Both the position numbers and the translations under genes were made by a program. This document shows positions 42,601-64,000 of a stretch of 64,000 nt of DNA, one piece after another. The stretch lies in the NCBI GenBank assembly GCA_021904315.1, contig CM038914.1:8866001-8930000 (forward strand), read 5' to 3'. The stretch's first letter is position 1, and each line of letters begins with the position of its first letter. Under the pieces are notes generated by a model, which was not told the DNA's origin, made no database searches, and was given only the letters and a program-made list of their open reading frames with translations. The stretch is from Sphagnum magellanicum. Lineage: Eukaryota > Streptophyta > Sphagnopsida > Sphagnales > Sphagnaceae.

Positions 42601-45600
42601 TTGCTTGGTTAGAAACTCATCAGCAATTCCAAAAACCCAACGCTTCCTCAGTAGCTTGTGTGAGTGTGTGAGCAGGGTTTTGAAGCGACCTTCAACCACC
42701 TGCATGAACCCAGATGAATCTCTCATTCTAGTCTTCAACACCACACCATATTCTTTGAGCCATCTCCAAGTATCATAGTAGTCTCTAAGAAGTCCAAGCC
42801 ACAAAACCATACTGACAAGGGTACAAACTGGCACTAGAGATGATAACTTCAACTAGAGTTGGTAATTCTTACTGCTTGTTCACGTGAGCCTCCTCCAAAA
42901 AAAGCCACTGATTCTGCATGTGTACGAAGCCTGGAGTGTGCATACCTGCAGGGAAAAAAATCACAGCACATCCATGATACACATTTTTTTCAACACAAGT
43001 AGGAGCTCTTCATGCCACACTTTTGGACAGAACTGCATACCTGAAATAACCCTCAAGCTGCTGTTCTTTGCTTGATAAAACTCCAAAATCAGGGGTAATA
43101 GCATGCAGGAAACCCAAGCCCAGAAACATGTATGCATATAAGATAGCCACCCCTCTCCTGCCAGTGAGGCTTTTCATTCGCATCGTGAACCTGCAACCCC
43201 CATTCACAACTCCCACAACTCCAAGTTTCAGAGAAATGACATATTGCAGGCTCTTTTCTGCTGAAGTAGCCTCCTCCCCCCCAACCCACTTTGTTAGCTT
43301 GCAGATAGCAGAAGCCTCTTGCAGAAAAGAAGCTGACAACTTGGGAGCTCTAACCCACCATAGAATATCCACCAGAGGCTTCACCATGCCTGTGACCAGT
43401 CCTGAAAGATCACCACAAAGTTTGTCCACATCTTGTGTTATCCGTTGGTCAGCATCCATGCCACTTTCAGACAAGTGCACTGCCTGCAACGCCCCCAATT
43501 CCCAGTACTTATAGAACAAATCCTTTTTTATATTGTCATTGGATAATAACACCATTCAACCTCTGCTTCTGTATGCAACTTATATATGATGCCCCAGCCC
43601 TTGGGTATCAACACCTTGATCATGCTTGTAGCTGCATGAAGAGAAGGCAGCTTTAGGGACCACCTACAAGGTGGTCCCTAAATAAGGACCTTTGCAATTC
43701 TCTGAAAGCTGAAAATGTGTGGGAATCTGACCTTATAGTATGCATTATTTTGGAAGTACAGTTTGGAGAGAGACTCTGTCAACCGGTATCGCCAACCTAG
43801 AGCTAGCTTAGCAGTCAAATTCCTGATCAAGAAAAAGAGCACCCATGTCAGCTACCAAAGGCACCAGCCATGCCTAAGACACTCCGTTTTGCCACAACAG
43901 GTCTCAAAACTATGGCTCAAGCTCTCTGTAGAAAAATGTGAAGGGTATTGAGTGAGATCCAATAGAGGTGGGTGCTCAAAGACCTGAGTGATGGAGCAAC
44001 AATGGCAGAGGCAACACTCTGCAGTACACTTATGCCTGTTAAACGAATAAAAGCCACTTTGTCTTGATGCAAAACATGCTTCAAACTTGTGCCTGCCAAT
44101 CCCAATCAACCCATAGTCAGGGCAACTATGCTCTGGCTTTTAAATTTTACCACAATAGCCTCTACTGACCAGCAAAAGCATCACACTATCACAGAAGGAA
44201 CGGTCACTCAACAAACAGCTTACCATTGAGATCTGCAATGCGGTCAGAAATCCATGTACGGCTCACAACAAGCAGTGCCACGGCCAGAAGCTGACCTCCT
44301 TGCTTACCCAATATAGTTGGTACCTACCCATAGCCATGAACACCTTCAGAACTGAACCCAGATCTGTAACATGGATGCGGAAACCCTTTCTTTGAACTAT
44401 TAAGACAACATCTAGAAGACCTCACTGTAATCAGAAACTAGTGCAGGTTTGGGAATAACTGATTGTTGCTCAAAACTCCAGATGGCAGTTCTACATGTGT
44501 CGGGGATAGTTAGATGCCAGATATCTCAGTTCTCAATCAAGATAAGAGAGAAAACCTACAAATCACACCCTTGAAAATGTTTTCCTTTGTAAGCAACTAC
44601 CAATTTCCAAGCCACTCCCAGCATGAACCCACATACGGTTGTGGCTAGGTCAGACTTACCAAAATTTTCAACAAGGAGCTGACTCGTGCAGCTGTCGTTC
44701 GAGGTTCTGCTTTCAACCTTGGGACCAATGGAATAGGCATAAGAGGGTCAGGGGGAGGAGATGTTGCCAATATAGTGCTCACATATGCATCATCTGCTTG
44801 TGAGTCATTATGTGTGTCCTGCAAAAAACCATAGTAAGACCAATTGCAGAACAGAAAATTGATCTCAAAAAAAATGCAACCTGAATAACATTGCAACTGT
44901 AGACATCATCCAGCCATATTGATTATCTATGAGGGTCAATGTACAAAGGAATTGTGTAACTCCACAAGGTAATAATAGGTACCTTGGTTGTTGAGGCCAA
45001 AAAATGCTCCTGGACTACCATTGCACTTGACTTGCAATCTGATTGCAGTTCGCCATCTTCCTGATCATTCTTCTCCTCCAAAAGGATCTCCAATGGGTTT
45101 TCTCTGAAGAAAAAAAATGAAATTCAAATCACTGTCACAGTTCTTGAACTCAATAAAAAAGAGAAACTCAGGTTCTTAAGACTTTACTCCATGTGAAACC
45201 CTAATCTAGTGGTTTGTAGAACTGATGTATAACCAGGATAAAAGCATACATTCAGAACTTCTTGAAACCCACATTAAGTCCCAACCTTTTGTAGTGAACA
45301 CTCCAGCCACCCTCACCATCAAGGGAAAGAACGGTGTCATGGAAGGCCACAAGTGCAGGACGGTGAGAGATGGTGACACACGATGTGCCCATGGCACGCA
45401 CTTTGTTGCAGAAGCGTTGCTCCATGTCGGTGGTGACAGCACTGGTGCATTCATCCAGGATTGCAAAAGCTGGACGGTGATAGAAGAGACGAGCCATGCC
45501 AAGGCGCTGCTGCTCTCCGAGTGACAGCTCGTCCCCCCAGTTCAATTCCTCTTCTAGCGGATAGCGGTCAAGCAAGTATTCCAGGTCCACCTAAACTCAA

Positions 45601-48600
45601 GAAAATAATTGACTCCATCAGAGGGCACTGACAAAGGTTGTCCACAAAACAACAGCAAAGACGATTTGCAGACTAGAATTGATTTTACCAATCACATGCA
45701 GAGTTGCACATGGGATGATGTTGTATGGAGAAAACCTTTTGAGTTGCAAATCCTACTCAAAAAAAAATTCACCTTTGTCCATCTTCCCATGACTATAGTG
45801 ACTGATCCCTACAAAAGGAGAGAAAAAGGGCACACTACATTTTTCAACAATTCCCGCATGCCATTGATCGTCAGTGGCTTTGTTTCTTCTGCAGAAGTAA
45901 GTGGGTAAATGAGCTGGTCACGCAAAGTTCCGACTGCCATATAAGGTCGCTGAGGTACATAGAAAATTTCATGGCTCAAATCTGCTCCTGTTCCAGGTTT
46001 GGCAATTCGGCCTGCCACTAGAGGCCAAAGCCCTCCCAGAACCCGAAACAAAGAGCTCTTCCCACTACCATTTGGTCCTGCAACAGGTATCCACATAAGC
46101 CAGACTAAGAAACACATAGTACATCCGTACTTTTGTTTGCCCCCAATGAGATCAAACTGAAGGACACTTCAGAAGGCTAAGATCACATGACAGGCATGCA
46201 TTTATTCTCCTAAGAGAGCTGGAAGTTGAAGTTAGGTTAAAGGCACACCAGTGATAAGAAGATTTGAGCCTTGTTCCACTTTCAATGTCAAGTCTTCCAC
46301 CAAGATGTTGCCTGTGGGTGTTACTACCTGCATCATGCTGATAGATTGATAACCAAACCTAAAATTTCGGACAATGGCAAAGTGAGCTGACACAAACAAA
46401 AATGAACAAGGCTGAATCTGCAACTAACCTTCACACCTTCAAACTCAATGTATTTTGCTTCCGCAAAGTAGCTGTCACTGTCTCTGTTACTAACAACCTT
46501 GCTACCACCAGCGATTCGCAACTCTCTTGCTACCATGATAAGCTCACGAATGCGATCTGCATACCCACTGCAAATCGGACACACAAAGATGCAAGGAGTC
46601 ATTGTTAGACTTCAAAACACAGTGATCACAGTACTGATTTTGACTGAAACAGCATGTTCAATTGGTTGTGCATGTAGGCTAACCTGACACGAGAAAGACG
46701 GCGAGAACTGCTGGCAAGCGTACCCATTGCCTGGAACAGGGAGATAATCACACTAGTGTGATACCGCATATTACTGAGCATCTTGGCACGGCCAAGTGTG
46801 GAACTATCCGGTCTCAAGTTGCCTCCAAAGAAGGGTCCAATAATGAGGACAACAGCAAAAGTGGCTCCAAGATATTTCAGGAAACAGTCCTGGATCATGC
46901 CAAACCACCACTGTGTGTGCAGCACTTTGCCCAGATGCTTTACAAGTGCCTTGAACCGTTGCTTTATGATTGATGCCTCACGCACTTGTCCTCCATAGAA
47001 TGCAATGCTTTCAGAATGTGTTCGGATTCGTGAATGCAGCTGCCTATACTCCCCTTCCAGCTGCTGCTCAGTTGACATTAGCCTCCCAAACGGTGGTGAG
47101 AGGACCCCCGTTATTACTCCAGCCCCTAACACATAAGCCTACATGGAACATCACTGAACATCATTTTAGATCCCGTCTCCCTGGACCAAACTAGAAACCA
47201 CAAAAACACCTCAAATGAGTGGCAAAATAATCAAGGACTACGAATTTCAAACATTGCTAAAATAATGAGAACAAGAACTGCCAGATAGCCTAGGGACCCA
47301 ATCTGTCAACTAGTACCACAGCAGAAATTCTCAACAGAACCCAAATCAAACTGACACCAAAATGAGCTAGAAGTCACATACCAATATGCTGAAGGCATAT
47401 TTGGGATGGGCATAACTACACAATCGCCAAGTATAGAGACAAGCATCAAAAATGGCCATTATGTCCTCCTGTATAAGGTCACTAAGTTCTGCACAAAATC
47501 TTGGAATGTCACTGGCTATCCTCTGTTCCGCATTGCTGATTCGATGATCCACATGCGACATCTTGTAATATGTCAAGTTCTGCCACAGCCAGCAAAGTTT
47601 TAGTTCACACAATGAATTGTTGGAAAACAGATCCCAAAAAGAAGAATTCAGCTGAAGGAAAACTCAGGCCACTGTCTTGCTGCACCCACCTGCCTGTGTC
47701 ACTCCTAGAAAATCACAAGACACATATACATTCTTCCACTTTTTGTCACTGACAGTATTAGGCAAGGAGGAGATCCCTGAAGGTATATAGATTTGCCTGA
47801 ATCTATATACCTCCCTGGATTTCAGAAGCTAAAACCCACCTGGAAATAATCAGCATGGACCTGATCAGTCAAGATCTTCCGAAAGCATAGACTTAAAGTC
47901 CCAGTCAGGAACCTTGTGGTTGATACCAAAACAGATTGCAGAAGACACAACACCAGATTTTCAGAAATCAACTGCATGAAGAGGGGTACACGACGCAAGA
48001 ATGCAGCTCTGAACAAAAATCCTTGCACCCGGGCTAATCTGTTCCCCAATGCTGTCCTCAACACCTGCTCCATCATCATCATCATCACATTATGCATGTT
48101 TTCACACCTCATTGGCTTACAAACCTAATCACTAAAACAATGATATATTCCAATGTCCAACTTTGAAATTGTGGAGATAAAATTACTGAGAAAGAGTGAA
48201 CAGGGCATCCTGACAGAAAAACACAAACAAAAAAAATAAAATTGAAGTGCACAACCAGCATACAAATAACAAAAGATGAGAATTTGTGTTAAAGGAGTGC
48301 ATCAGAAACTTGACACCAAAATCTTGCAAAGTTCATCAGGACATTCAATAATTTCAGCAAACATGTGTTGTCTGACAGTAGAAAGGGCCGGCCTCATACC
48401 GCAATGGCAGCCAAAGACACTAAATTCTCCATGCCTCGCTTCCCCATGTGTGCCAGAAGGATTGCACTGACCACCTTCACTGACTTCAGCCCACCCCTCT
48501 TCTGTTTCCCTTTCTGCAAAACTCCACTACTCCTTCCCTTTGCGGCCGCTTTGGCCACCTCCTCTCCATCATCTGTATCAGCTGCATGTGCAAGGGGATG

Positions 48601-50160: not shown

Positions 50161-50875
50161 ACCACGTCCCAATCCAGGTGCCGAAAACTTAGCCCATATA
50201 AACATGGCTTTTCAAACACCCAATCGACTTGCGTATTCAGATCTTGAACCCACAGCCCAAAAAATTGGCCACACTCTCTCCAATCATCTCTTCTCCTTGT
50301 GGGCCATCCAGTTGGCTTTGTCCCACAGGACAAGTTTCTGTGTCCAATTTAGGCCACCTTTTCAGGTGTTTGCATGGGCAGGACGGACTGTGTGAACAGT
50401 GGCAATTGCTCTTTTCTATGTCTTGATTCTTCATCCCTTGCAGGAGGAGGAGGAGGAGATTCTTGCTCGTTTGTTGGTGCTCTACAAGATGCAATCACCA
50501 GCAACCAACTTGCAGTTCACATACTAATGATGGTCACTATTCATCTCATGTCTCTCTCTATGTCTCTCTCTCTCTTGATGTGGCAAGAGGTTCCCTTGTT
50601 GTACAGTTATGGATTCCAGAACACATGGGTCATCTCTATGGGTTTTCTTTTTTTTTTCACAGGATTTGGTGTTTTGGAAGGTCCTTCACTATTTGGGACC
50701 AATCTTCTCTGATGCTGTTGCTCTGATCTGCAGCGAAGAGGTCACTTTATTATGTGGACATTGCTGATTTCATGAGCATGTTACTTCCAGCAACAACATG
50801 AGGTAAAAAAGAAAGGAAGTTGGAAAGTAGGGTTTCAAATGTAACTAATCTGCTTGTGCTCAATTCTGGTGGGAC
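50161..50875. other. Intergenic, no gene recognised
   Basis: Lies between the ABCD leader and the SGR6-like relic. A 113-codon forward frame (50374-50712) has no recognisable domain. KRSLYYVDIADFM-like coding potential near 50735-50770 may be a further piece of the downstream relic, but I cannot place it in the family. Confidence 0.4.
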
Positions 50876-50887
50876 GTTGTAGATTCC

Positions 50888-51640
50888 CAAATTGAAGGCG
50901 CACATCAATGACACGAGAAAATACCTGGCCCAACAAATCACCTGGGAGGACATGATCATCCATGTAAAGTGGAAAGTCTATGAACACAAGTAGACATGGC
51001 AGGAATGTATTTAGGCAGTGAGAGAGGATCAAACTAAACAAGCCTAACCTTGCAATGGCCTTTCACACTCCAGTCTTTCACTAGCAAGATAAGACTTGCA
51101 TATCTTGCAACATTCTCTGCTTGTATGCTAACTGATCTTGCTTGTCCTCTGATGTTCCAGCTGCTGTCAAAGATACTTGATGTGATTGATGACCCAGACT
51201 GGACTCAATCTTTTGGAAATGCTTTTGAAAAGCCAATATGACCTTTATGTCGGAGACTACAAACATTCTGCTTTGCTATGTACAGGTGTGGTCCCTATCC
51301 ACATGATTCTCATGATGTTATGGATGTTTTTATAAACAGTCTATGTTTCAAAAAAACAGTTTACATGCCTAGGAATTTTGTAGCAAGCACCATTCTAAGA
51401 AACACTGTTGACATTGCAAAGACACCTGAGTAGAAACATGTGATTTTCCTCTATGGGTTGATTAGAAATGATTGACAGAATAGATTGGCTGGCAGATGCC
51501 TTGGAATGTTGTTACAAAGGGTCAATGATGCCAGCTATGTGCAACAAAAACTAAACTTGATGGACAACCATGCCAACTTCACAGATGCACAAAACCGAGT
51601 TGGTCTTGCCAAAGCCTTGGGCATGGTACCAACTCTTTCT
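50888..51640 (+). pseudogene. SGR6/MROH-type HEAT-repeat protein fragment, frameshifted
   Basis: Three exon-like pieces on the plus strand match the HEAT-repeat family of plant SHOOT GRAVITROPISM 6 and animal Maestro heat-like (MROH) proteins, which act in vacuolar-membrane dynamics in plants. Piece 1 (about 50883-50962) reads IPKLKAHINDTRKYLAQQIT then WEDMIIH, ending at a GTAAAG donor. Piece 2 (about 51162-51288) reads LLSKILDVIDDPDWTQSFGN then AFEK; one extra base near 51233 shifts the frame to YDLYVGDYKHSALLCT. Piece 3 (about 51487-51625) reads LAGRCLGMLLQRVNDASYVQ, DNHANFTDAQNRVGLAKALG. Splice-like sites flank each piece. The intact family protein has well over 1000 residues, and no more of it is recognisable, so this is a fragment. 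Confidence 0.55.
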
Positions 51641-54189
51641 CCTATGCCATGTATCTTCCTACACATCAGGTGACAAGTGTTCTCCAATTATTGACCAGAA
51701 ATCACAAGGACTTGTATACTGCTGCTGTCAACCTAAATAGATGCAAAGGCCTTAAAAACCAATACAAATACATTTCGTTCTTCACAGGAGTGTTATGAAG
51801 GCCTCTGGTCACAAGTTCTCAGTGTATGTTGAGTAACTCTCTTGAACACTAAAAGATGTGTGTAAACAGTTTCTTGACTCCAACTTAAACAGTGCCCAAG
51901 GACCTGATGTTGATAAAGGACCATACTTGAGAATGTCATGCAGTACACTGTTTGGTGGAGTGTGCAGTAGGAAGGGGTAATAGAAAACAGCTTCAGAAAA
52001 GGACAAGTGTTGTGTGTGGATTTCTTACATCAACATGCAATCTTTCCTTTGACCAACTGTGACAACCTAAATCCAGAAAAGGTAATCAGGTTAGTTGCTC
52101 CATATAGTCATGTCATTTCACTTACAGAAGATTTGTGTAGTTTCAGGCAAACTTTGAAAACTAAAAATTGGAGTTCTATTTAGGGTTTAGTTATTTGTCT
52201 TGGTATACAAAATTTGCAATTGTTGTAGTTTTTTTTCCTTTTGATGTTTCAAATGGTTTTTTGTTCTCTTGTTGGACAGGCAAAGGAACCTTGTGGTTTT
52301 TATAACTTTCTTGGCATCAGATTTTTGCAATTTATGTAGTTTATGTTAGATTTGTTACTGAGTTTCAGCCTCTCTTTTTTCTCTTTTGAAGTTCATGGAT
52401 GAACTTGTACATCGCCCTAGCAAGAAAAGAGCAGCATCCATGTCTGTTGCGGGAATAATTGACGTGCAATAGAGGATGTTGGGTGTTATATTTGAAGGTA
52501 CATAGTGAGCAGGTATGGATCTTATGATGTGGCCGGTAGCGGCTTTAAGTACATACACTGTGATCTCACAGATGTCTCAGGGTATTTTACAATCACTTTA
52601 ACAGTTGGTTCAACTTTTGCCACTACTCTCTCTCCTCAACTCAATGTTGGGTCGTATATACATATTGCAAATTTTGGTGTTATGTTTTGAAACAAGTTTG
52701 AGATGGGTGATTGGGGATTTGTGTTGAGAGTCGGGACAACAACAGTAATAGAACCAATTGATCCATTCCCCATTAGCTTGCATTTTGTTGCCACTCATTC
52801 CATCCAAACTTTCATGCAGGGGTCAGATTTGGAAGAACTTGAAACCCTAGAAATGGTTGTCACAGGGATCTATGGCAAAGACCTTTATCTTGGTTGTGGT
52901 AGATAGGTTAGAAGCTAGTGATACACAAGTGCTATCCTTTTACCTTGAGTTTTACGCACAGTATGTGTAACTAGTAAACACTTACAGCACTGGCAGACTT
53001 CCTATAGTTCTGGTCAAGAATATTGGAAGTGCAGTTTTTGGGGAACAACAACTTGTGACAATTTTTTTCAAGGTGTTTGTTATCCCTGCACCTGATGATG
53101 CAATTGTTAACAAGCTCAGCAAAATGCACAGCAAAAAGACTGAAGGGCAAGACACTATAGTAAACTTTGAGATATTGTATGTGTATCTTTTGGTCTCTTT
53201 CTTAATTTCCTTGTACAATTAGTACTGAAGGTTCATATAGAATTAGTATTTAAGGTTTGCATTTTGAAGTGTAGGTTGTTGGGAAGTTGTTGATTGCTAT
53301 TGGGGCATCTTGCTTTGAAAATGTATGCATGAAATGCCACCTGCCTTCTCTGACCAATCAAGATGGGGGTTTCTACTGCTACAGTAGTAAGTGCACAATC
53401 CATCCTGAAACTCAGCCCAGATTTCATGCAAGATAAAGCAAAACAATGATGACAACTATGATTGTATCGTGTATGATCCTTGGATTGAATCTTTGTTGGG
53501 ACGCAAGCTTGTGAGTCCTAAAGATTTAGAACCAAGCTAGGGTTTTTTCTTCATCATTCCAAAAGCAAAAAACCTTAGGGCCATTTCATATTAAGTCCCG
53601 CTGCAGAGGTTGTGGGCTATTAGCCCTAAACGCATCTCAATAAATGAAAACTATAGAGGAATAGACATTGTTCATATGTCCATTATTGTTTTTGCTTGAG
53701 GTTTTGAAGACGGCGCTCTACATATCTACAAGGTAATTTTCAATTTTAGTTTTCTGCACTACGTTTTTACGATAGGTCTTTGATGTATGGTTTTTTTCCA
53801 ATTTTACAATTTGAGGCGTATCACTCTTGTACATTCCATGTAAATGAAAACAGTTCGGTGTTTAGGGTTTAGGGTTTAAGGGATGTTGGATTTTGGTACT
53901 GGAAAGTTTACATACTAACTTTCCACAAAATTTAATTTTAGGCTATTGAAATAGAACTTGAATAATGAGAATTTCTTTTTGGCTACAGGTGTGTGGATGG
54001 GTTTATTGGGTTTTGCTTTTCAAATGCCCACATTTACAAGTACTAGTTTTTATATCTCAACCACAACTCAAAACGTCTCAACAAACATTCTAGCATATAT
54101 ACATAGATTGTTTTTTAAAATCAAAGTTTCCAATCTAAATAAGAAAAAGATGTGCATTTTAAGGACACAAATGTTTAAATAATACTACT
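51641..54189. other. Intergenic, no gene recognised
   Basis: Mixed composition to about 53,600, then AT-rich. Short forward frames (52703-52906; around 52985-53170, containing PAPDDAIVNKLSKMHSKK) have coding-like composition but match no family I know; they may be more exons of the SGR6-like relic or of another broken gene. A forward telomere-like run lies at 53860-53882. Confidence 0.4.
53860..53882 (+). repeat. Telomere-like TTTAGGG run
   Basis: Three TTTAGGG-type units in a row, the last drifting to TTTAAGGG, in intergenic DNA. Confidence 0.85.
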
Positions 54190-55200
54190 AAAATCCAAAT
54201 TGTAAAAAGAAAAAATAACAATCAATAATAAATTGCAAATTAAATCAGGCAAAAAAAATTGAAATAAAAAAGTTAAAATTTGATAATAATATAAGAAAAA
54301 TTAATATAAATAATTGAAATTAATATTTCCTTACATTGGGACTTTGATAACATTAAAGTAAAAATTAAAATTAATTTAAATTATAAAATATTAAAAAAAC
54401 CCAAAAAATAATAATGAAAATAAAGTGATTGATCCAATATATATATATATATATAGTGACAAGTAAATAAAAGTGAAATAGAAATAGTTAAATTGTGAAA
54501 ATAAAATAATAATAGCCAATATTGATAACTAAAATTAGTCATTCATGACATTCAAATTTTGATAACACTCAAGTAAAAATTATAAATGTTTTCAATTTTT
54601 TTTTAAAATAGAAGCCCAAAAAGCAATCAATAGTAATTTAAAATGATTGACCAAAAATAAATCATTTAATACTATAAAGGTAACTAAATAAACGGGCAAA
54701 TAAAATATAAATAATTTTCTTACCTAAAGGTAAAAATAATTAAAAATGATTACACATATTAAACGAACTATAAATTGTTTTTAAAAATCAACAATAAATT
54801 GGAAGTAAATATGCCAAAACATGTCTTTTACAATAGGTCCTATTTGACTATAGTCGATTTTCTAGTCATTTTTTAAGTCACTTATGCCATTTTAGTCAAA
54901 TAGGACACATTGTAAAAGACATGTTTTGGTGTATAGTGACAAATAATAAAGGTGAAATTAAAATAGTTAAATTGTAATAACATAATAATAATACCCAATA
55001 TTAATAATTAATAATTAGTGATTTTTAATGTTGAAATTTTGATAATAATAAAGTGAAAAGTATGAAAGATAAATCAAAAATAAAAAAAGGAAATCAATAA
55101 TGAATTCAAAATAATTGGTTCAAAACAAGTGAACTAATAGTATAAAATTAAATAAATAAATCGTAAATAAAATATAAATAAATTTTTTACCTTAAAACTC
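54190..55200. repeat. Diverged AT-rich repeats upstream of the Helentron-like element
   Basis: Segments beginning TAGTGACAAGTAAATAAAAG (54455) and TAGTGACAAATAATAAAGG (54935) align for about 260 bases through GTTAAATTGT, ATAATAATA(G/C)CCAATATT, TTTTGATAA and ATAAATAAAATATAAAT-like words. A third, more diverged copy lies before them (about 54,330-54,440). The unit spacing is about 480 bp including the hairpin element. They may be the start of the neighbouring transposon. Confidence 0.6.
54814..54929. mobile_element. Hairpin MITE with 36-bp terminal inverted repeats
   Basis: Arms 54814-54849 (CCAAAACATGTCTTTTACAA...) and 54894-54929 are reverse complements with two mismatches over 36 bases, around a 44-base centre. 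The element has no coding capacity. It sits at the junction between two of the AT-rich repeat units. Flanks are AAATATG on the left and TGTATAGTG on the right, with no clear target duplication. It could instead be transcribed as a foldback small-RNA precursor, but nothing shows this. Confidence 0.75.
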
Positions 55201-55374
55201 TAACTAAATAAATAGAATTATATATATACACACACACATGCACACACGCATACATTTAAATAATATAAAATGATTTGAAACAAAATCCCACAAATTTTGT
55301 TTTATTATAAAAAAAAGGATATTGACTAAAAAAAGTAAATAAAATTGGTTTGCAAAGAATTACCAAATTGTATT

Positions 55375-55846
55375 ATGGTTTGGTGATTGCCTTTTTGATG
55401 CAATAGTATATTTGTTAAAATATTCAATACATTTAAAAGACCTTTGCAAAAATAATATGGTTCATTTATAACAATGTTTAATGCTTAGGACATGAGAAAC
55501 ATTAGAATGTCATAGGTGTGAATTAAGTTATGAGTTTCTACATAATTTACATCATGGATAAGTAACTAATGAAGAAACCTATATGCAAAAAATGTCAATA
55601 TATGCAACTAATGGTGGATTGTGGTGTGATTTCAATGTTGTGTATTATATATTAAGATATTTGGAATGCCCAATCCATGTTTGGAATAAAAATAATAGGC
55701 GAATAATGGCAAAAATAGGAGACCAATATGGCACTATGATTTTGAAGATAATATATGGAAACAATCATTTTAAACCTGTAAACAAATGTAATAATGTTAT
55801 TGATATCTCAACAATTTCCAAACATGACAATGCATACAATAATTAG
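55375..55846 (+). pseudogene. OTU-type cysteine protease domain of the Helentron-like element
   Basis: FGDCLFDAIVYLLKYS (from about 55380) holds the catalytic cysteine of an OTU domain. After a short gap the frame at 55583-55846 continues as LWCDFNVVYYILRYLECPIH then VWN, and ends with YGNNHFKPV, which holds the catalytic histidine. Both key residues are still present. At least one stop or frame break separates the cysteine and histidine parts, so the domain is not expressed as one piece. The position before the Rep region is that known for OTU-bearing Helentrons. Confidence 0.72.
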
Positions 55847-55903
55847 TTAGAAAATACAACAATAAAAAAGAAAAAAGTTATAATAAAACAAAAGAGGTTC
55901 ACT

Positions 55904-57265
55904 TTGAATTTTGAATTAAATGATACATTATTAAAAAAACAATTTAACAAATCTCAAATGGAATTCAAAAGAAATTGCATTAACACTTATCCAACAATAT
56001 TCGCATTTAAGTTTATCCATGTCACAAATCAAACAACATTTGAAACATCTTTATGCCCAAAAAAAATAAAAATTAATAAAATCAATATTTTTCCAAAAGA
56101 AAATCAAATAATTATTTCCAACATATTGCAAAATTGTGAAGGTGACATATTGAAAATAATCAAACAACCCTTAAAAAAAAAACCAATATTATTAAAATGT
56201 TCCATTACATGTATTGACCAATATTGATAAATTTTTTGCTAATCATAATATTCTAAATAATCAAGTTTTGAAGGATAAACCTAAATCTTTTTGAACCCAA
56301 ATTGTTGAAAAAGACAAGATATCAAAGCAAACAAATATTAAGACAAGTATCCATGACAAACACATTTTACAATATAAATTTGTTATTGACGACATAACAA
56401 AACATGTGTGTTATTGTCAAAAATATTGTCTTAAACATCAAGTTTATTATGCATCCTAATCATAAAACGTTTCCCCAATGCTATTAAAAACATAAAATCT
56501 AATGATCATGTACTAATGTGTAAGCCTTGTAAGAAAAAAATAGATTTTGGAAAGTTGTTAAATTTAATTTTACAAGAACATATTGTCAATAATAAACCAA
56601 ATATGGAATTTGTTTTACAATTAAACTAAATAGAATAACATTTAATTGCACCTCATTTCACATTTGCACAAATATGGCAATTACGAGGACACAAATAATA
56701 TGGAATGCATGGCGACATCATAAATGTACCAACAAACTTTCATTTAGTACAAAATGTGTTACCATGAATGCCATATGATGATTTTTCAATTTCAATTTTT
56801 TTGAAAAGGAAATTAGAATACAAGTCTCTATATATTTCAAGTTATGTTCACCTAAACATAGTTATGAAAACATTACAACAAATTTATAGAAACCTTTTAT
56901 ACATGAATGCAAATGTTTCAATAAAACCAAATTGGCAAGGTTTAATGGAATTTGTCAATGTAAGTCAAGAAAATGAAATTTAAAAAAATAAAATTGAAGA
57001 TGATTCGAATTTGGACAACTTAGACACATTTGAAGAAGTTATAAAAGAAAGTTACAATGACAAATTGATACAAAACATATTAGAACTTAAACAAATTGTT
57101 GACAATAATTATAAATCATTAACAATTGCCCCTAGTGAAGGTTTTCGACCTCTTGGGTTGTTCTGTGACAAACATTCAAAAGAATATAACTTTCTGACAT
57201 TGTTTTTCAAACATCAAAAACCATCCTTTAATTGTTCATATCAAAAAAAGTCCAAGCTGAATTAA
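55904..57265 (+). pseudogene. DUF6570-like N-terminal region of the Helitron protein
   Basis: Open pieces at 55904-56227, 56768-56983 and 57011-57265 match the segment between the OTU and Rep regions. Visible blocks are IAPHFTFAQIWQLRGHK, YGMHGDIINVPTNFHLVQN, YDDFSISIFLKRKLEYKSLY, NIVMKTLQQIYRN and LTIAPSEGFRPLGLF. The motif APSEG followed by PLGLF is the usual entry into the Helitron-like Rep region. Stops and shifts divide the pieces. Confidence 0.72.
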
Positions 57266-57489
57266 TAAGTGTGAATAAAAATTTGCGTACCACATAACAA
57301 ACATATTTTTCAAAAAAATAAAAATATTGATTCATTTCATATTATCTTCCACGTGGATTCGTATCCGAAAAGGAAAATTATTGAATTGTACCTTAATAGT
57401 TAAAGATGTGTCAATTGATTTTAATTTAGATAAAATATTAAAATCTGATTTAGGTATTTGAGAATTAAATTGTACAGGAACATTTACAA

Positions 57490-58410
57490 ATTATTTAGAT
57501 CGTTTTCAAAAAAGATTTATTTATAATGATTAGACAATTTGGACTTCCACCATTCTTTGTGACATTTATTATGGGTGTTAATAACTGGCCTATACTTATT
57601 ACAACATTCAAAAATTTACATACTCAACATTTCAATGAAAACATAACAACAAATAATGATAATTCATTAAATAACAAATTTTTTGTTAGAAATGATCCTA
57701 TTACATGTGTATGATATTACGAACATAAGATGAATAATTTTTGTAAATTATTTAAAAATATTATGATTTATTCGATGATGTTAAGGATTACTTTTTCATC
57801 GCATAATTTCAATCAACAAGCCTAATTCATGACCATGGAGTACTATGGATTAAAAACGCCTCTATATTTGGTATCTTTTCAAATGAAAACATTGAAAATT
57901 TTGTTAACAAATATTTAACAATAGATTAATCTCTTCTTCAAAATGAAACTCGTGTTGCACAAATACATTAACATAAACAAACATGCAGGAAAAAATGCCA
58001 ACAAATTTGTCAGTTTCAATATTCTAAACCTCTAATGAAATGTACAAAAATATTAATGCCTTTATACGAAAAATAATGTACGCTATATTTACATGATGTA
58101 GGAATTCAGATTTATAATAAACTTGTGAACATGGGTTTAAGCACAAAAATATCATTTGATGAATTCCTTGTAGAATTACAAATAGATGAAAATACTTATT
58201 TGTCTGCATTACAATGTACACTACATAAGCCAACATTACTTTTTCAACATAAACCAAATGATATACATACAAATATATTTAACATATATGTTGGGACTTT
58301 GTGGGAAGCAAATACAGATGCACAATTTATTTTAGACCCATATGCAGATGTTGTTTATTGCACTTTTCACTTAACAAAAATAAATAAATATATTACACAA
58401 AAAATGTAAT
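57490..58410 (+). pseudogene. Helitron-like Rep (HUH) domain
   Basis: MIRQFGLPPFFVTFIMGVNN (from 57526) then WPILITTFKNLH and FVRNDPITCV are characteristic of the Helitron-like N domain. After a shift comes the metal-binding HUH motif region HDHGVLWIKNASIFG (57828 onward), the counterpart of PHDHGLLW. Next are MKCTKILMPL and, at 58125-58409, LSALQCTLHKPTLLFQ, DAQFILDPYADVVYC, the region before the Rep tyrosines. Several stops make the domain non-functional. Confidence 0.8.
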
Positions 58411-59289
58411 ATATATTAACAAAAAATGTAAAATTGAACAAGCTCAAGCATTTGAACAAATCAAAAAGTTAGGAAATGCATTTTTAATGCATAACAAATG
58501 CCGATCTAACAAGCAATACACATATCATTATCCATTTAATTCTATCATTCAACAAAATCATTTCAATTCATAAACACATGTGAAAAGTCCAAAACAACTT
58601 TCATGTTATTAACACAAAAAATATTACAAAACTTAATCCCAACTTCAACAAACATTCATTGCAAATCATTAATTGAAAAATACAAAACATGACCCATGAA
58701 GTTAAATCATTTGTGTCTTGCATAATTTATAACAAATTACGACATAAAAACATGTAAAGTTCATAAACATAGTAAAATATTTTGTCTCTTTTAATCTTCA
58801 TAAAGATCTTGAAAACCATTATAAGGAACTATTCTTATTATTCAAGTTGTTTCATGGATCAAAAATTGATTTAAAAAAAGACTATAATTTGTGGAAATTT
58901 TCATATTTAAGTGAAAAAGAAAACATTAGAAAACATAAAAGAAACTATGTGTAAAATTTTAACCTTGTTGATAAATATAATGATGAATGGGATAATTTAC
59001 AATCAAAATTACAAGAATATATAAAAATTCATGAAAATAATGGATGGGAAAAAATTTCTCACAATGAAATGATCATTTTCACAAGTGACCCACATATAAA
59101 AACATTAAATACTAATGCTAATGAAATTAAACAATATGATTTAGCATATATGAAAATAATTCACAAATCAAAACCTCTAAAAAACCATTAAAACACGGTT
59201 TGTAGTTCATATGTACAAATAGATGAATGTATATTATACAAACAATTTTTTTCTACCATGAAGAAACTAAATGATGAACAAAAAATCAT

Positions 59290-60690
59290 TGTAGATGATA
59301 TTTTATATATAAAAAAACAAAAACCCATCAAAATATTTGCATCTTTTTCTAACAGGAGGTGCAAACACATGGAAAACATTCACACTCATGTGTATGATGC
59401 AAACATGTTGCAATAATATATGAAACAAATGCCAAATGTTGATCCTTTAAAACCCAAAATTATGAAATTAACATACACACAGGAAGTTGCATTCAACATT
59501 AATGGCACAACAATACATTTTGCACTTGCCATTCCATTAAACAAAAATTACAATGAACCCAAAACATTAAGTGATGTGAAACAAATGGTAACAATAGATG
59601 AAATATCCTTAGTAGGTAATATAATGTTAACATTTATTGATCGTAAATTACATGATATAAAACAAACACACAATGAATTTATGGATGGCCTTGATGTTAT
59701 AATGATAAGTGATTTATATCAAACTTCACCCTCTACAACTCACCTCTTACATGGTGCATCCTTGACACCCTCCTTCCCCCCCCCCCCCCCCCCCCCCCCT
59801 CCTTTTTTTTTCAATTTGATACGTAGCATGGGTGGCGATCATCCCACATAAGACTTATCTTTAATGGTGGCTTGTTTCATGGATTTTGAAATCAAGAATT
59901 GAAAAACTCAATATCCTTGGAATAAGTTTTTGGCAAGAAAACATATAGTGTTATGAATTACAATAAATCATGCACCAAAATGATCTTGAATTCATTATAT
60001 TCTAAATAGGTTTGAATATCATTATAGACCTTTGAAGATATTGACTTTATAAACAAATTTTTTTTGAGAGCACCACCAATAAATAATATTCTGCCACATT
60101 TATTTTACACAAATGCTAAAAAAATTGAATAGAACAAAATCATATTTCAAAACACAATGGGTCAAACATTCCCATTTCATGCAAAAGACATTCATTTTGA
60201 AACATGTTCTTCCCATTTCAAATTATTAATGATACCAAGCCTAGCCTCCACCATGAATTATTAATTAAAAAAATATGTTAATCAAATTATGTGCAAGGAA
60301 TTAGATAACAATATACGATCTTGTAAATGGTGCAAATGGGATTTTAAGAACTTATACATAAACCTTTTCAAAATCATTCATATGGATACATTTCCAAAAC
60401 CCTCAAATTGGAATCAAAACAAGATTAAAAAATTCACAAATATATAAAAAATTCCTTAAACTTGACAAAAAATGGACACCAATTGAATGAAAAATTGTTG
60501 AAATACAAATAGGTACCAATCATACCCATTTCATCACAAGAATCCAATTCCCTAATTAATTAGTTGTAGGACACGCTATACATTGTGTAGAAGGTTTAAC
60601 TTTTGATTGTCTAGCATTCGATCCATTTGGTGTAACAAAACATGGCTTCACATGTATAAACAACATTATTTTGTATTCATTCAAAAGAAC
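59290..60690 (+). pseudogene. PIF1-type helicase domain of the Helentron-like element
   Basis: The Walker A region reads GGANTWKTF (59354-59380), with Gly-to-Trp in place of the usual GGAGTGKTF. The 143-codon frame 59420-59851 contains FALAIPLNKNY, the Walker B-like TIDEISLVGN (about 59590-59620) and DVIMISDLYQTSP. It is then interrupted by foreign sequence with a 24-base poly-C run. Helicase blocks resume at about 60065 with LPHLFYTNAKKIE, then WTPIE, IVEIQIGTNHTHFITRIQFP, and GLTFDCLAFDPFGVTKHG (about 60596-60650). It is clearly defective. Confidence 0.8.
59776..59799. repeat. 24-base poly-C run
   Basis: An uninterrupted run of C followed by TCC and eight or nine T, embedded in the helicase region. 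Such runs are unstable and may be a sequencing or assembly weak point. Confidence 0.9.
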
Positions 60691-61059
60691 ATTTATATTT
60701 ATTTTCCCCATTATCAAACAAAAATTTCCATGTAGATTCCATTGTACAATTAAAAATGTTACATTTATAAAAAAAAAACAATATAAACTAACAATGCTTA
60801 ATTTGAAATTTTATAAAAAATAATTTATACTCATATAATCCATGTTAATTTATTATTTTTACATACATTTTTTCCCTTTCATAAGCTATTGGGTTCTTGC
60901 TCGTGCCATCCATTAAAGTACCACATACCCAATGGTTCGAGCTTTCTTAGCAAACTACCTCATTGCCTTACTTTTTTGTATTGATGTTTTACCAGGTCAC
61001 AAACCTCCCTCACAAATATACAATGTTGTTCTTAAATCTACCCATGCCATAGATTGAAT

Positions 61060-61083
61060 TGCTCACACACACACACACACACA
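61060..61083. repeat. (CA)n microsatellite
   Basis: About 12 CA dinucleotides between the helicase and EEP regions of the Helentron-like element. Confidence 0.9.
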
Positions 61084-61184
61084 CCATGTCTTTGGAAATC
61101 CATGTTTATTTACAATGTTCCTTCTTTACATCATTGGAACGCCTATTTATCAAAAATGGCAAACCCTAAACTATTGGACTTCTC

Positions 61185-61885
61185 TCCTTTTACCTTTACC
61201 TATCAATCCCTTAACCTTCATTCTTTACATTTACATTTCCAAAACATCCTTGTAAATCAAAACTTCATCACATATTTTTTGCTTTAATGAAACAATAATA
61301 CAAAATATTTGTACATATGAAAAAATTCACAATGTTATACTAAATAACAAATTTAATATCTTGTTATGATCAACATGGAATAATGATACTTTATGATGAA
61401 ATGGTTTCTTTGTCAAACACAATTTCAATAACAAATTCAAATATAAAAATTCATTGTCGCAACCTTTAATAAAAATTACGTGAGAAGCTATACATGTAAT
61501 TACAATTTATAAACTGTAAAAAATGCAAGTATCTTATTTCCTTTCCATTTAAAAAACTATTGTCCAAAAAATATTTACGGATTGTCCAACTATAATAATT
61601 TGGGAATTTCAATATGAACATGTTAACAAACACATTACAATCAATGGAACTACAAAATTTTATGGATAATTTTATGGTTTAAAACGTGTTTTCTTCGAAA
61701 CAACTACTATTTATAACACTCAAATAGATCACATATGGACCAATGCAAACACTAATACAAACAAGATCATTTGGATCCACTAAAGCTTATTGGACAACTC
61801 ATAAACCCATACACATTGCGTTTAAATTACAAGGCTATGTCCCAAAATTTACCTTCCCAAATAACACAAACATAATATTAACCAC
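61185..61885 (+). pseudogene. EEP (AP-endonuclease-like) domain of the Helentron-like element
   Basis: Shifted forward frames read SLNLHSLHLHFQNILVNQNF (about 61210), NETKIQNI (metal-binding Glu), YDQHGTMILYDE, ATFNKNYVRSY, and TTIYNTQIDHIWTN followed by KAYWTTHKPIHIAFKLQGY (61700-61840). The pair IDHIWTN and a WT(D/T)HKPI block matches the closing Asp-His motif of EEP nucleases; the Asp before His is changed to Thr here. EEP domains C-terminal to the helicase are a hallmark of Helentrons. Many stops make it inactive. Confidence 0.65.
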
Positions 61886-61942
61886 ATCCATAATTATTTG
61901 GACATGTGTATTATGAAACTTCAAATTTGGAAATTATACTCA

Positions 61943-62057
61943 CAAATAAATAAATAAATAAAAACACATCCATTATTTTTTTAATAAATAAATAAAAACA
62001 CATCCATATTTTTTAATAAATAAATAAAAATACATCCATAATTTTTTTAATAAAAAA
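61943..62057. repeat. Minisatellite, ~36-40-bp unit
   Basis: Three copies of a unit of the form AATAAATAAATAAA, AACACATCCAT, then A/T and a T-run. It follows the EEP domain directly and may mark the 3' end of the element. Confidence 0.85.
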
Positions 62058-62059
62058 AC

Positions 62060-63373
62060 ACCAATCAGGAAATACATCATAAATATAAATACCCAAATTC
62101 ATTTATTCGATGGGCAGGGTCTGCACCTGCGTGTTGTGAGACCTTTGATTTTCCTCGCTTTTTTTGGGGCTTCTGTTTGCTTCGTTGGGGTGTCTTGTGC
62201 TGCTGTTGCCGCTGCTGCTGCCGCCGTTGCTGCTGCTGCTGCTGTTGATGCGGCGTGATTCCACCGTCTTCTGTTCCCTGTCTGACACTGGACTGCGCCA
62301 ACCTCGGGGGAGTTGATCAACAACACCTTCGTGTGTTGGCGTTGTGGTGGCGTGTGAGCTTTGTAGCCTATATTAAGCGACGCGGCTTCCTCATCGACTC
62401 GACGACGCAAACAAAAGGGTCCAAACTGTCAGCTCACATCTGTCCGTTTCGTTTCCCAAGTGTAAAGTGGCCGTGCCCACCCCCCCCGAATTCCATGCCA
62501 GGAATGTAGAGAATGACGCAGAGCTGCTGAGAGAGAGGTGCTTCTGAGAGTAGCTTTTTTGCCTGACCAGGAACAACTAATTGCAAGGACAAGGGTATAA
62601 TATCCGCTTGGCTTGGCGCTTGTTTCTTCTTGGAAGAAGAACCCAAGCGGCAAACAGGTAGTATGTGTAGAAAGGAGAGAACAACTAGTAAACAACACGT
62701 AGCAGTAGTTGCACGGCTAGATCTATCTGCCGCAATAAACCAAATCTTTCGTACTCTGGGGAAGCAGTGGAGCTATCAGATCCCCACCCCCACACATTCC
62801 CAGAGAGGGGACTGCCTGCTTGAGAGTAGTGTACATCAACAACCTGACTTGCAGCTTTCCCAGGTTTAAGAAGGTACGCGGCACTCACAGAATATCTACT
62901 TCTACTGCTACACATGCATTTGAGTGCTGGAATCTTCCTTGCATCCTTTACTCCACATCATGCAACATGGGTTTTTTTGGTCATGAGACATGTCTAGCTT
63001 CAAGGCCTTCATGGGTCTTTTTTTTTCTGCGTCGTCTTTTTCTTAGGTTTTCGAGAACTTGGTTTTCTTTTTGCATGATGCGTTGTTGCCTGCGCTCCTT
63101 GTTGTGGTGCTCCTACTCACTGCAGTTGGCTTTTTCCCCTTTCGATATCTGCTGCTACTGCTCACTGCATCTTTTTCAAACACCGTTGTACCCCAGGGAT
63201 CTTCAGAAGCTGATACATAGAAATGCAAACAATTAATTTTTTCAGGTGTTGTAGTTCAATATTTTGAGATCAACTGAGGGAGACGTTGCTCGTGTTAAGT
63301 TTGGACTTGCATTTTCCGTGGCTTGTTGATTTGAGAGAGCCCTGCTAAATGTAAATCTGAATATTTCAGAGGG
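62060..63373. other. Intergenic; upstream region of the XTH gene
   Basis: The composition becomes GC-rich and gene-like here. A GCT/GCC-rich tract (62199-62247) creates alanine-, serine- or glutamine-run frames on the minus strand, which I do not accept as genes. The block 62,250-63,240 could be a leader exon or promoter of the XTH gene, or the 5' end of an unseen minus-strand gene, but no domain is recognisable. Confidence 0.4.
62199..62247. repeat. Imperfect (GCT/GCC)n tract
   Basis: TGCTGCTGTTGCCGCTGCTGCTGCCGCCGTTG-type sequence, an interrupted trinucleotide repeat, the source of homopolymeric amino-acid frames. Confidence 0.85.
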
Positions 63374-63409: not shown

Positions 63410-64000
63410 ATGGAGAGAAGATTAATGGAATGCAATGATGGGAATAATCTGCGGCAATCAAGATTGGCAATGCCGGAATCAAAATGTGACTGCCACTTAC
63501 TGTTAGCAATTCTGGTATTCATCTCAGCAATAATATCAGTGCAATCATCTATGGACAGAGGGCCAGCAAGCCCAGACTCAATGTTCCGTAGCCATTTCTG
63601 GAGCACAGCAGATGCAGATCATTACAAGCTATTAGAGAATGGTGAGGTTGCAGAGCTTGTCCTTGACAGGGTAGCTGCTGCAGGATTTGCCTCTAATACC
63701 AGATACTTGTTTGGGTGCATCAGTATTCAAATGAAGCTGCATCCTGGTGATTCGGCAGGAACTGTCACCACTTTCTACACATCGTCTTTGAGTGGGAAGC
63801 ATGATGAGCTTGATTTTGAGTTCTTGGGAAATGAGATTGGCAAGCCGTATGTACTGCAAACCAATGTGTATGCAGCTGGAGTCGGAGATCGGGAGCAGCG
63901 CATCAAATTATGGTTTGACCCAACAGCCGATTTCCATAACTACACCATTCACTGGAACAAGAAGATCATCATTTTCATGGTGGATGAAACACCTATCCGA
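63410..64000 (+). CDS. XTH: Xyloglucan endotransglucosylase/hydrolase (GH16), 5' part
   Basis: A secreted wall enzyme that cuts and rejoins xyloglucan. The frame is open to the window end (197 codons) and continues beyond it. The catalytic motif [10 protein letters not shown] lies at residues 131-140, with the nucleophile and acid/base glutamates present. Other family blocks are [54 protein letters not shown] and ETPIR. A hydrophobic stretch ([20 protein letters not shown]) is the signal peptide. It follows an in-frame ATG at 63470, which may be the true start; ATGs at 63410 and 63374 are also in frame. The N-glycosylation sequon usual just after the catalytic motif is absent (GNEIG instead of GNxT/S). 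At least one more exon is expected downstream. Confidence 0.92.

Follow-up and report, generated by a model that had tools for sequence, protein, structure and literature searches.

A 64,000-nucleotide stretch of the Sphagnum magellanicum genome (assembly GCA_021904315.1, contig CM038914.1, here C8, positions 8,866,001 to 8,930,000, forward strand; hereafter the window) carries the remnants of five domains: OTU protease, DUF6570, HUH Rep, Pif1 helicase and EEP nuclease. In Helitrons, a Rep tyrosine makes a single-strand nick, Pif1 unwinds the DNA, and the strand is carried to a target; Helentrons are reportedly the EEP-bearing Helitrons, as Poulter is said to have described them in 2003. Here, we report that the window very probably holds a decayed copy of a rolling-circle transposon of Helentron type, one that is old, comprises several families and resides in the moss genome.

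Domain content of the window

Coding remnants (window coordinates, strand, description):

55343..55792, plus strand, OTU cysteine-protease remnant in a single frame with three stops (leave-window-out profile, 206.9 bits)
56400..56983, plus strand, zinc-finger-like Cys pairs (by eye) and DUF6570 (Pfam and profile)
57125..58409, plus strand, Rep (Helitron_like_N) remnant in three frames (profile and Pfam PF14214)
59240..59731, plus strand, N-terminal half of the Pif1 helicase (profile, 208.4 bits), with degraded Walker A and B motifs legible by eye
59876..60841, plus strand, C-terminal half of the Pif1 helicase and following sequence (DNA homology, 10-18 relatives per 50-base bin; protein read by eye)
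61204..61935, plus strand, EEP (Exo_endo_phos_2) nuclease remnant (profile), with IDHIWTN and YWTTHKPI legible

The domain order claimed in the original prediction was recovered on the plus strand from 55343 to 61850 (170-476 bits), and its claim that every domain is broken held as well, with stops or frame breaks in all five. Profiles were built with the window left out, from rows of 20-36 other loci of the same genome, and 100 sequences drawn from a first-order Markov model of the region served as controls; the scores are slightly favourable, since the window query had first set the profile columns. Rep scored 475.8 bits (57138-58406), DUF6570 233.7 bits (56450-56935) and EEP 169.9 bits (61298-61765), a second EEP frame (92.4 bits) extending to 61850. 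The top domain score among the random controls was 8.6 bits, and elsewhere in the window, beyond the element, no profile score exceeded 6.5 bits.

Pfam scans of the window copy used read-through composites across frame breaks. Cut-offs were passed by Rep (PF14214; 31.2 bits, cut-off 28.9), Pif1 (PF05970; 39.6 bits, cut-off 25.9, with 63.6 bits for relative L063) and DUF6570 (PF20209; 36.1 bits, cut-off 24.3), the last already on plain frame translations. Against the PDB, the helicase gave five weak helicase/ATPase matches (E 1e-4 to 3e-3), and the EEP stretch gave nothing below E 0.8. Among relatives, one of four OTU proteins exceeded the PF02338 cut-off of 23.3 (L059, 35.0), the others giving 14.9, 13.3 and no match, and three of six EEP proteins exceeded the Exo_endo_phos_2 cut-off of 27.4 (L059, 30.2; L067, 28.5; L069, 38.4), the others giving 23.4, 15.0 and no match. 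No Rep is listed near the EEP of L067 or L069; L059, where both OTU and EEP pass, has Rep.

Motifs could still be read by eye in the plus frames of the window: GDC (GDCLFDA) and NNHF (NNHFKPV) in OTU, and FFVTF, HDHG and a Y motif, spread over three frames, in Rep. Across copies, the OTU catalytic Cys was counted by eye in 14 of 18 rows and the His in 15 of the 16 rows with a residue there. Rep motif counts exclude gap-rich rows and rows repeating the window or another locus: HxH occurs in 22/31 loci (middle residue D in 20), and the two motif-3 tyrosines in 23/29 and 24/29, the window retaining the motif-2 HDH and one Tyr, with the second Y-motif Tyr replaced. Just ahead of the motif-2 P, 21/31 loci have L, as does the window, 5/31 have S and 5/31 another residue. 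Of 22 EEP rows, 6 show an intact GDFN and 7 an intact IDHIWTN; the window has the latter alone (counted by eye).

Co-linearity across the genome

The genome (438,994,042 bases in 31 contigs, the window lying at 8.87-8.93 Mb of the 25.3-Mb C8) was searched with the Rep, OTU and EEP of the window, giving 105 (best 99 of 786 candidates), 150 (best 150 of 350) and 144 (best 150 of 365) matches, respectively, which merged into 92 Rep (window included), 147 OTU and 126 EEP loci. Rep, OTU and EEP counts below refer to the matches listed and are lower bounds, and that a domain is not listed says little about whether the locus lacks it. For comparison, canonical Helitron loci were taken as the best 150 of 576 PF14214 candidate loci.

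Within 8 kb of Rep, OTU lay upstream on the same strand in 41 cases, downstream in none and on the opposite strand in 2, against about 0.12 pairs expected under uniform placement. EEP lay downstream on the same strand in 42 cases, upstream in none and on the opposite strand in 2, and OTU and EEP stood in the right order in 32 cases, the wrong order in none and on opposite strands in 3. Spacing was 1.8-2.8 kb in 39 of the 41 Rep-OTU pairs and 2.6-4.2 kb in 35 of the 42 Rep-EEP pairs. The case that could have overturned the prediction, OTU or EEP pieces present here while other Rep-helicase copies lack them, or inserted as separate elements, is contradicted by these pairs, none of which has either domain on the wrong side. 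At least 20 of the 92 Rep loci, window included, are flanked on their own strand, no more than 8 kb away, by both an upstream OTU and a downstream EEP; the remainder have OTU only (21/92), EEP only (22/92) or neither (29/92).

Five loci, including L059 to L063, were fetched for close reading, picked for readable frames or listed domains, and all five carry the five domains in order, which is the co-linearity in several copies that had been proposed as a check. L059 had been listed without OTU and L063 without EEP; the missing domain was present in both by profile.

The listed matches for EEP, OTU and Rep point to a population of many copies, old and diverged. The listed Rep matches other than the window reach at most 60% identity, and 4 of the 105 lack internal stops, each spanning less than half of the query. 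A rough Rep tree of moss copies only was built from 32 of 40 rows (three short rows were dropped, as were five that repeat the window or some other locus); its rows were stitched from multi-frame matches and contain some out-of-frame residues. In it, the window clusters with L032 and L039 (support 97/96), and the five S-bearing rows form one clade (100/99).

Extent, upstream gene and insertions

The interval first proposed, 55370..61935, is right for the coding remnants and too short for the whole element: sequence common to other copies runs beyond them, from 51948 to 62124-62162.

51948..52183, plus strand, first segment common to another Helentron-type copy (L072), which may be the exon edge of the upstream gene
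52400..53230, plus strand, upstream, possibly RPA-like (OB-fold) gene remnant, 50-62% identical to three other copies
53230..55340, plus strand, non-coding stretch separating the upstream gene from OTU, pieces of it common to other copies (~65-85%)
54809..54934, no strand assigned, palindromic MITE-like (miniature inverted-repeat transposable element) insertion with 42-base arms, 90% complementary; 0 element relatives in the 54850-54899 bin
59731..59875, no strand assigned, later insertion in the helicase, with a run of C; 0 relatives cover 59750-59849 and 14-20 cover the flanking bins
60842..61203, no strand assigned, later insertion of 362 bases between direct repeats of 5 bases (AATCC); 0 relatives cover 60900-61199
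61936..62162, plus strand, 3' non-coding end with three 34-base tandem units, followed by a conserved end motif that may form a GGTCT...AGACC stem

The homology at 51948 begins at the apparent edge of an exon, and additional sequence further upstream is common to two other copies; position 51948 is therefore not taken as the true 5' end. Diverged direct repeats lie within the 53230..55340 part (copies at 54251, 54466 and 54945). At the other end, homology stops at 62124 (L012) and 62162 (L015), and the 3' end motif is legible in other copies, followed in several by T-runs. The upstream and 3' non-coding parts are common to the same kind of copies as the domains.

The upstream remnant possibly reads like an RPA OB fold, although it scored 12.7-12.9 bits against DUF223, below the cut-off of 24.6, and matched nothing in the PDB. 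Its 52400-53230 part has 31 DNA matches besides the window itself; 21 of these have a listed OTU, Rep or EEP no more than 10 kb away, and 10 have none. Within 10 kb, OTU lay downstream on the same strand in 17 cases, upstream in 0 and on the opposite strand in 1; the corresponding figures were 16, 0 and 4 for EEP and 10, 0 and 3 for Rep.

By eye, the 60842-61203 insertion shows a word resembling a B box (GGTTCGA) and a CA microsatellite, and is for that reason possibly a short interspersed nuclear element. The MITE-like stretch is dispersed in the genome, 47 of 56 DNA match rows being its copies elsewhere.

Rearranged copies were also seen. At C9:10117276-10119341 (L074, L018), the 5' non-coding part is joined directly to the helicase end and EEP, giving an internally deleted form that may be non-autonomous. 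On C19, three Helentron-type copies (L036, L046 and a third Rep locus) lie within 0.17 Mb (10.77-10.94 Mb) with shortened Rep-EEP spacing, L036 and L046 being nearly identical in the Rep tree; a deleted copy may have been duplicated locally.

Host and neighbouring genes

63461..64000, XTH-type glycosyl hydrolase 16 gene, its reading frame beginning ~1.3 kb past the 3' end of the element
45812-47135, minus strand, ABC transporter exons (ABC_membrane_2, 119 bits)

The land-plant host given in the original prediction is borne out by the XTH gene on the same contig. The element is resident in the plant genome, and the host question is settled for this moss. The stretch 43010-43555 gives by eye a reading similar to that of the ABC transporter exons, which suggests a tandem pair. 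Two further repeats adjoin the upstream side of the element, at 50500-51718 (C10, 90%; C17, 87%) and 51720-51944 (C19, 89%).

Interpretation and alternatives

Several results weigh against a Helentron-type transposon. The Thomas 2014 signature, an S flanked by G and P in motif 2 (PMC4067079, available text), is absent from the lineage of the window, this S being a residue signature and not a defining gene feature of Helentrons. Neither the OTU nor the EEP composite of the window matched any Pfam family. No intact full-set copy was seen among the loci examined, and fusion of EEP to the helicase in a single reading frame, for which no copy was unbroken and the readable frames were shifted in all five fetched loci, consequently cannot be shown. 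The 5' end was not located by comparison with other copies, no inverted match was found upstream for a 17-base subterminal inverted repeat, and DNA folding of five 3' ends gave a hairpin no better than in shuffled sequences (z -1.2 to +0.7). In favour of such a transposon, mismatch in all five domains is highest at codon position 3 and lowest at position 2, which suggests past coding constraint, with most differences arising while the proteins worked, although aligning on protein similarity biases the contrast in the same direction.

It is highly improbable that the locus is a canonical plant Helitron (Rep-helicase) beside which unrelated OTU and EEP fragments inserted by chance. The 72 of 92 Rep loci without a listed OTU, EEP or both could be read in that way, as could the subset lacking both, and they too tell against a single element; yet every same-strand pair shows the same order (41/41 OTU, 42/42 EEP), mostly at narrow spacing and with two opposite-strand pairs each, both list absences checked by profile proved false, and no OTU or EEP stands on the same strand within 8 kb of the best 150 PF14214 loci. 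Chance insertion is refuted by these co-linearity counts. Contamination from an animal, fungus, oomycete or alga, which an earlier survey could not exclude for its own plant hits (PMC4067079, available text), is scarcely credible here, because the 25.3-Mb contig carries a plant XTH gene ~1.3 kb beyond the element. ABC transporter exons lie upstream, and the listed Rep loci are spread over 19 of the 31 contigs, all 19 having PF14214 loci as well; with plant genes on its flanks and this spread, contamination was rejected. For a domesticated, still functioning host locus, a reading with next to no probability, no supporting evidence was found, and it is opposed by the stops or frame breaks in every domain and by the two later insertions that split the coding part. 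The window copy is dead now, and the family looks dead in the assembly, as judged among the matches listed.

An unlikely reading, and one with some evidence in its favour, is that a Helitron2-group element gained OTU and EEP independently of animal Helentrons, so that the architecture is convergent. It would account for the motif-2 L of the window's lineage in place of the Helentron S, which is confined to a single clade of five rows, and Helitron2 has been reported from 'SMo' (PMC3627910, available text). Against convergence, identical order with identical extra domains is simplest by descent, and both OTU and EEP are found in a member of the S clade (L059) as well as in copies that do not belong to it (L060-L063, the window).

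For a Helentron-type transposon, the ancestor would have encoded, in order, a possible RPA-like single-stranded-DNA-binding protein, an OTU protease, and then one or more proteins with DUF6570, HUH Rep, Pif1 and EEP domains. By analogy with what is generally held of Helitrons and Helentrons, Rep would nick and hold one element end, Pif1 would peel off a single strand, the RPA-like protein would coat it, and OTU might strip ubiquitin from the transposition proteins; EEP, we suggest, may help to cut a T-rich target. A proteolytic role for OTU and single-stranded DNA binding for RPA have been suggested before (PMC4067079, available text).

More tentatively, full-set Helentrons (RPA-like, OTU, DUF6570, Rep, Pif1 and EEP) may be old and vertically kept in the green lineage, and deeply diverged within the moss; we regard this as possible and rather doubtful. 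If true, the capture of EEP and OTU would date from early eukaryotes and would not be an animal invention. Helentrons have so far been described as widespread in animals and fungi, their presence in plants being doubtful (PMC4067079, available text), and at least 20 co-linear OTU-Rep-EEP loci in a chromosome-scale plant assembly provide an outgroup for timing when EEP and OTU joined rolling-circle transposons. Helitron annotation through strong PF14214 matches could overlook such elements, because the best 150 of 576 PF14214 loci include none of the 92 Rep loci.

Comparison with known systems

No relatives outside the moss were found in IMG/VR or GTDB genomes. One source taxon of reported Helitron2 elements is abbreviated 'SMo', which we take to be Selaginella. 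In open-licence PMC, as far as the available text of the sources goes, no plant Helentron report was found besides doubtful hits in PMC4067079 and the 'SMo' Helitron2 of Bao and Jurka 2013 (PMC3627910). The available text of Thomas 2014 (PMC4067079) places Helentrons in animals and fungi and Helentron-like Rep in algae and oomycetes, and describes the plant hits as few, short and low-copy, with contamination possible. In that of PMC5148889, none of the fungal elements identified there has an endonuclease, and endonuclease-bearing Helentrons, often with OTU, are a distinct group.

Canonical plant Helitrons (Helitron1) are present in the same genome and share the superfamily Rep-helicase. Their motif 2 is GLPHAH in all eight PF14214 loci read, whereas the window has HDH. 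Up to 8 kb from the best 150 PF14214 loci, the same strand holds no OTU, EEP or window-type Rep, and the opposite strand a single OTU. Eight 3.5-kb PF14214 loci (L001-L008) matched none of the five domain profiles, and the closest of the 150 PF14214 loci to any listed Rep locus was 30.6 kb away. With neither a GLPHAH motif 2 nor an absence of OTU and EEP, the window copy is not a Helitron1.

Helitron2 elements (Chlamydomonas, 'SMo'; PMC3627910, available text) resemble the moss copy in their Rep-helicase and in a possible hairpin near the 3' end; the moss copy differs in having OTU and EEP, and the 5' hairpin and asymmetric terminal inverted repeats that define Helitron2 are not shown for it. 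The proto-Helentron of Phytophthora infestans is likewise a Helentron-like Rep-helicase outside animals, described without EEP (PMC4067079, available text), whereas the moss elements have EEP.

Helentrons themselves (PMC4067079, available text) share with the moss copies an HUH Rep, Pif1, EEP downstream of the helicase, an OTU gene, possibly RPA, and non-coding repeats. The moss copies differ in their land-plant host, in the motif-2 L of 21/31 loci and in that no unbroken copy was seen; the DUF6570 domain before Rep may be a further difference. The Helentron-like assignment of the original prediction does not extend to the motif-2 signature residue (L, not S); by gene content, the Helentron label holds.

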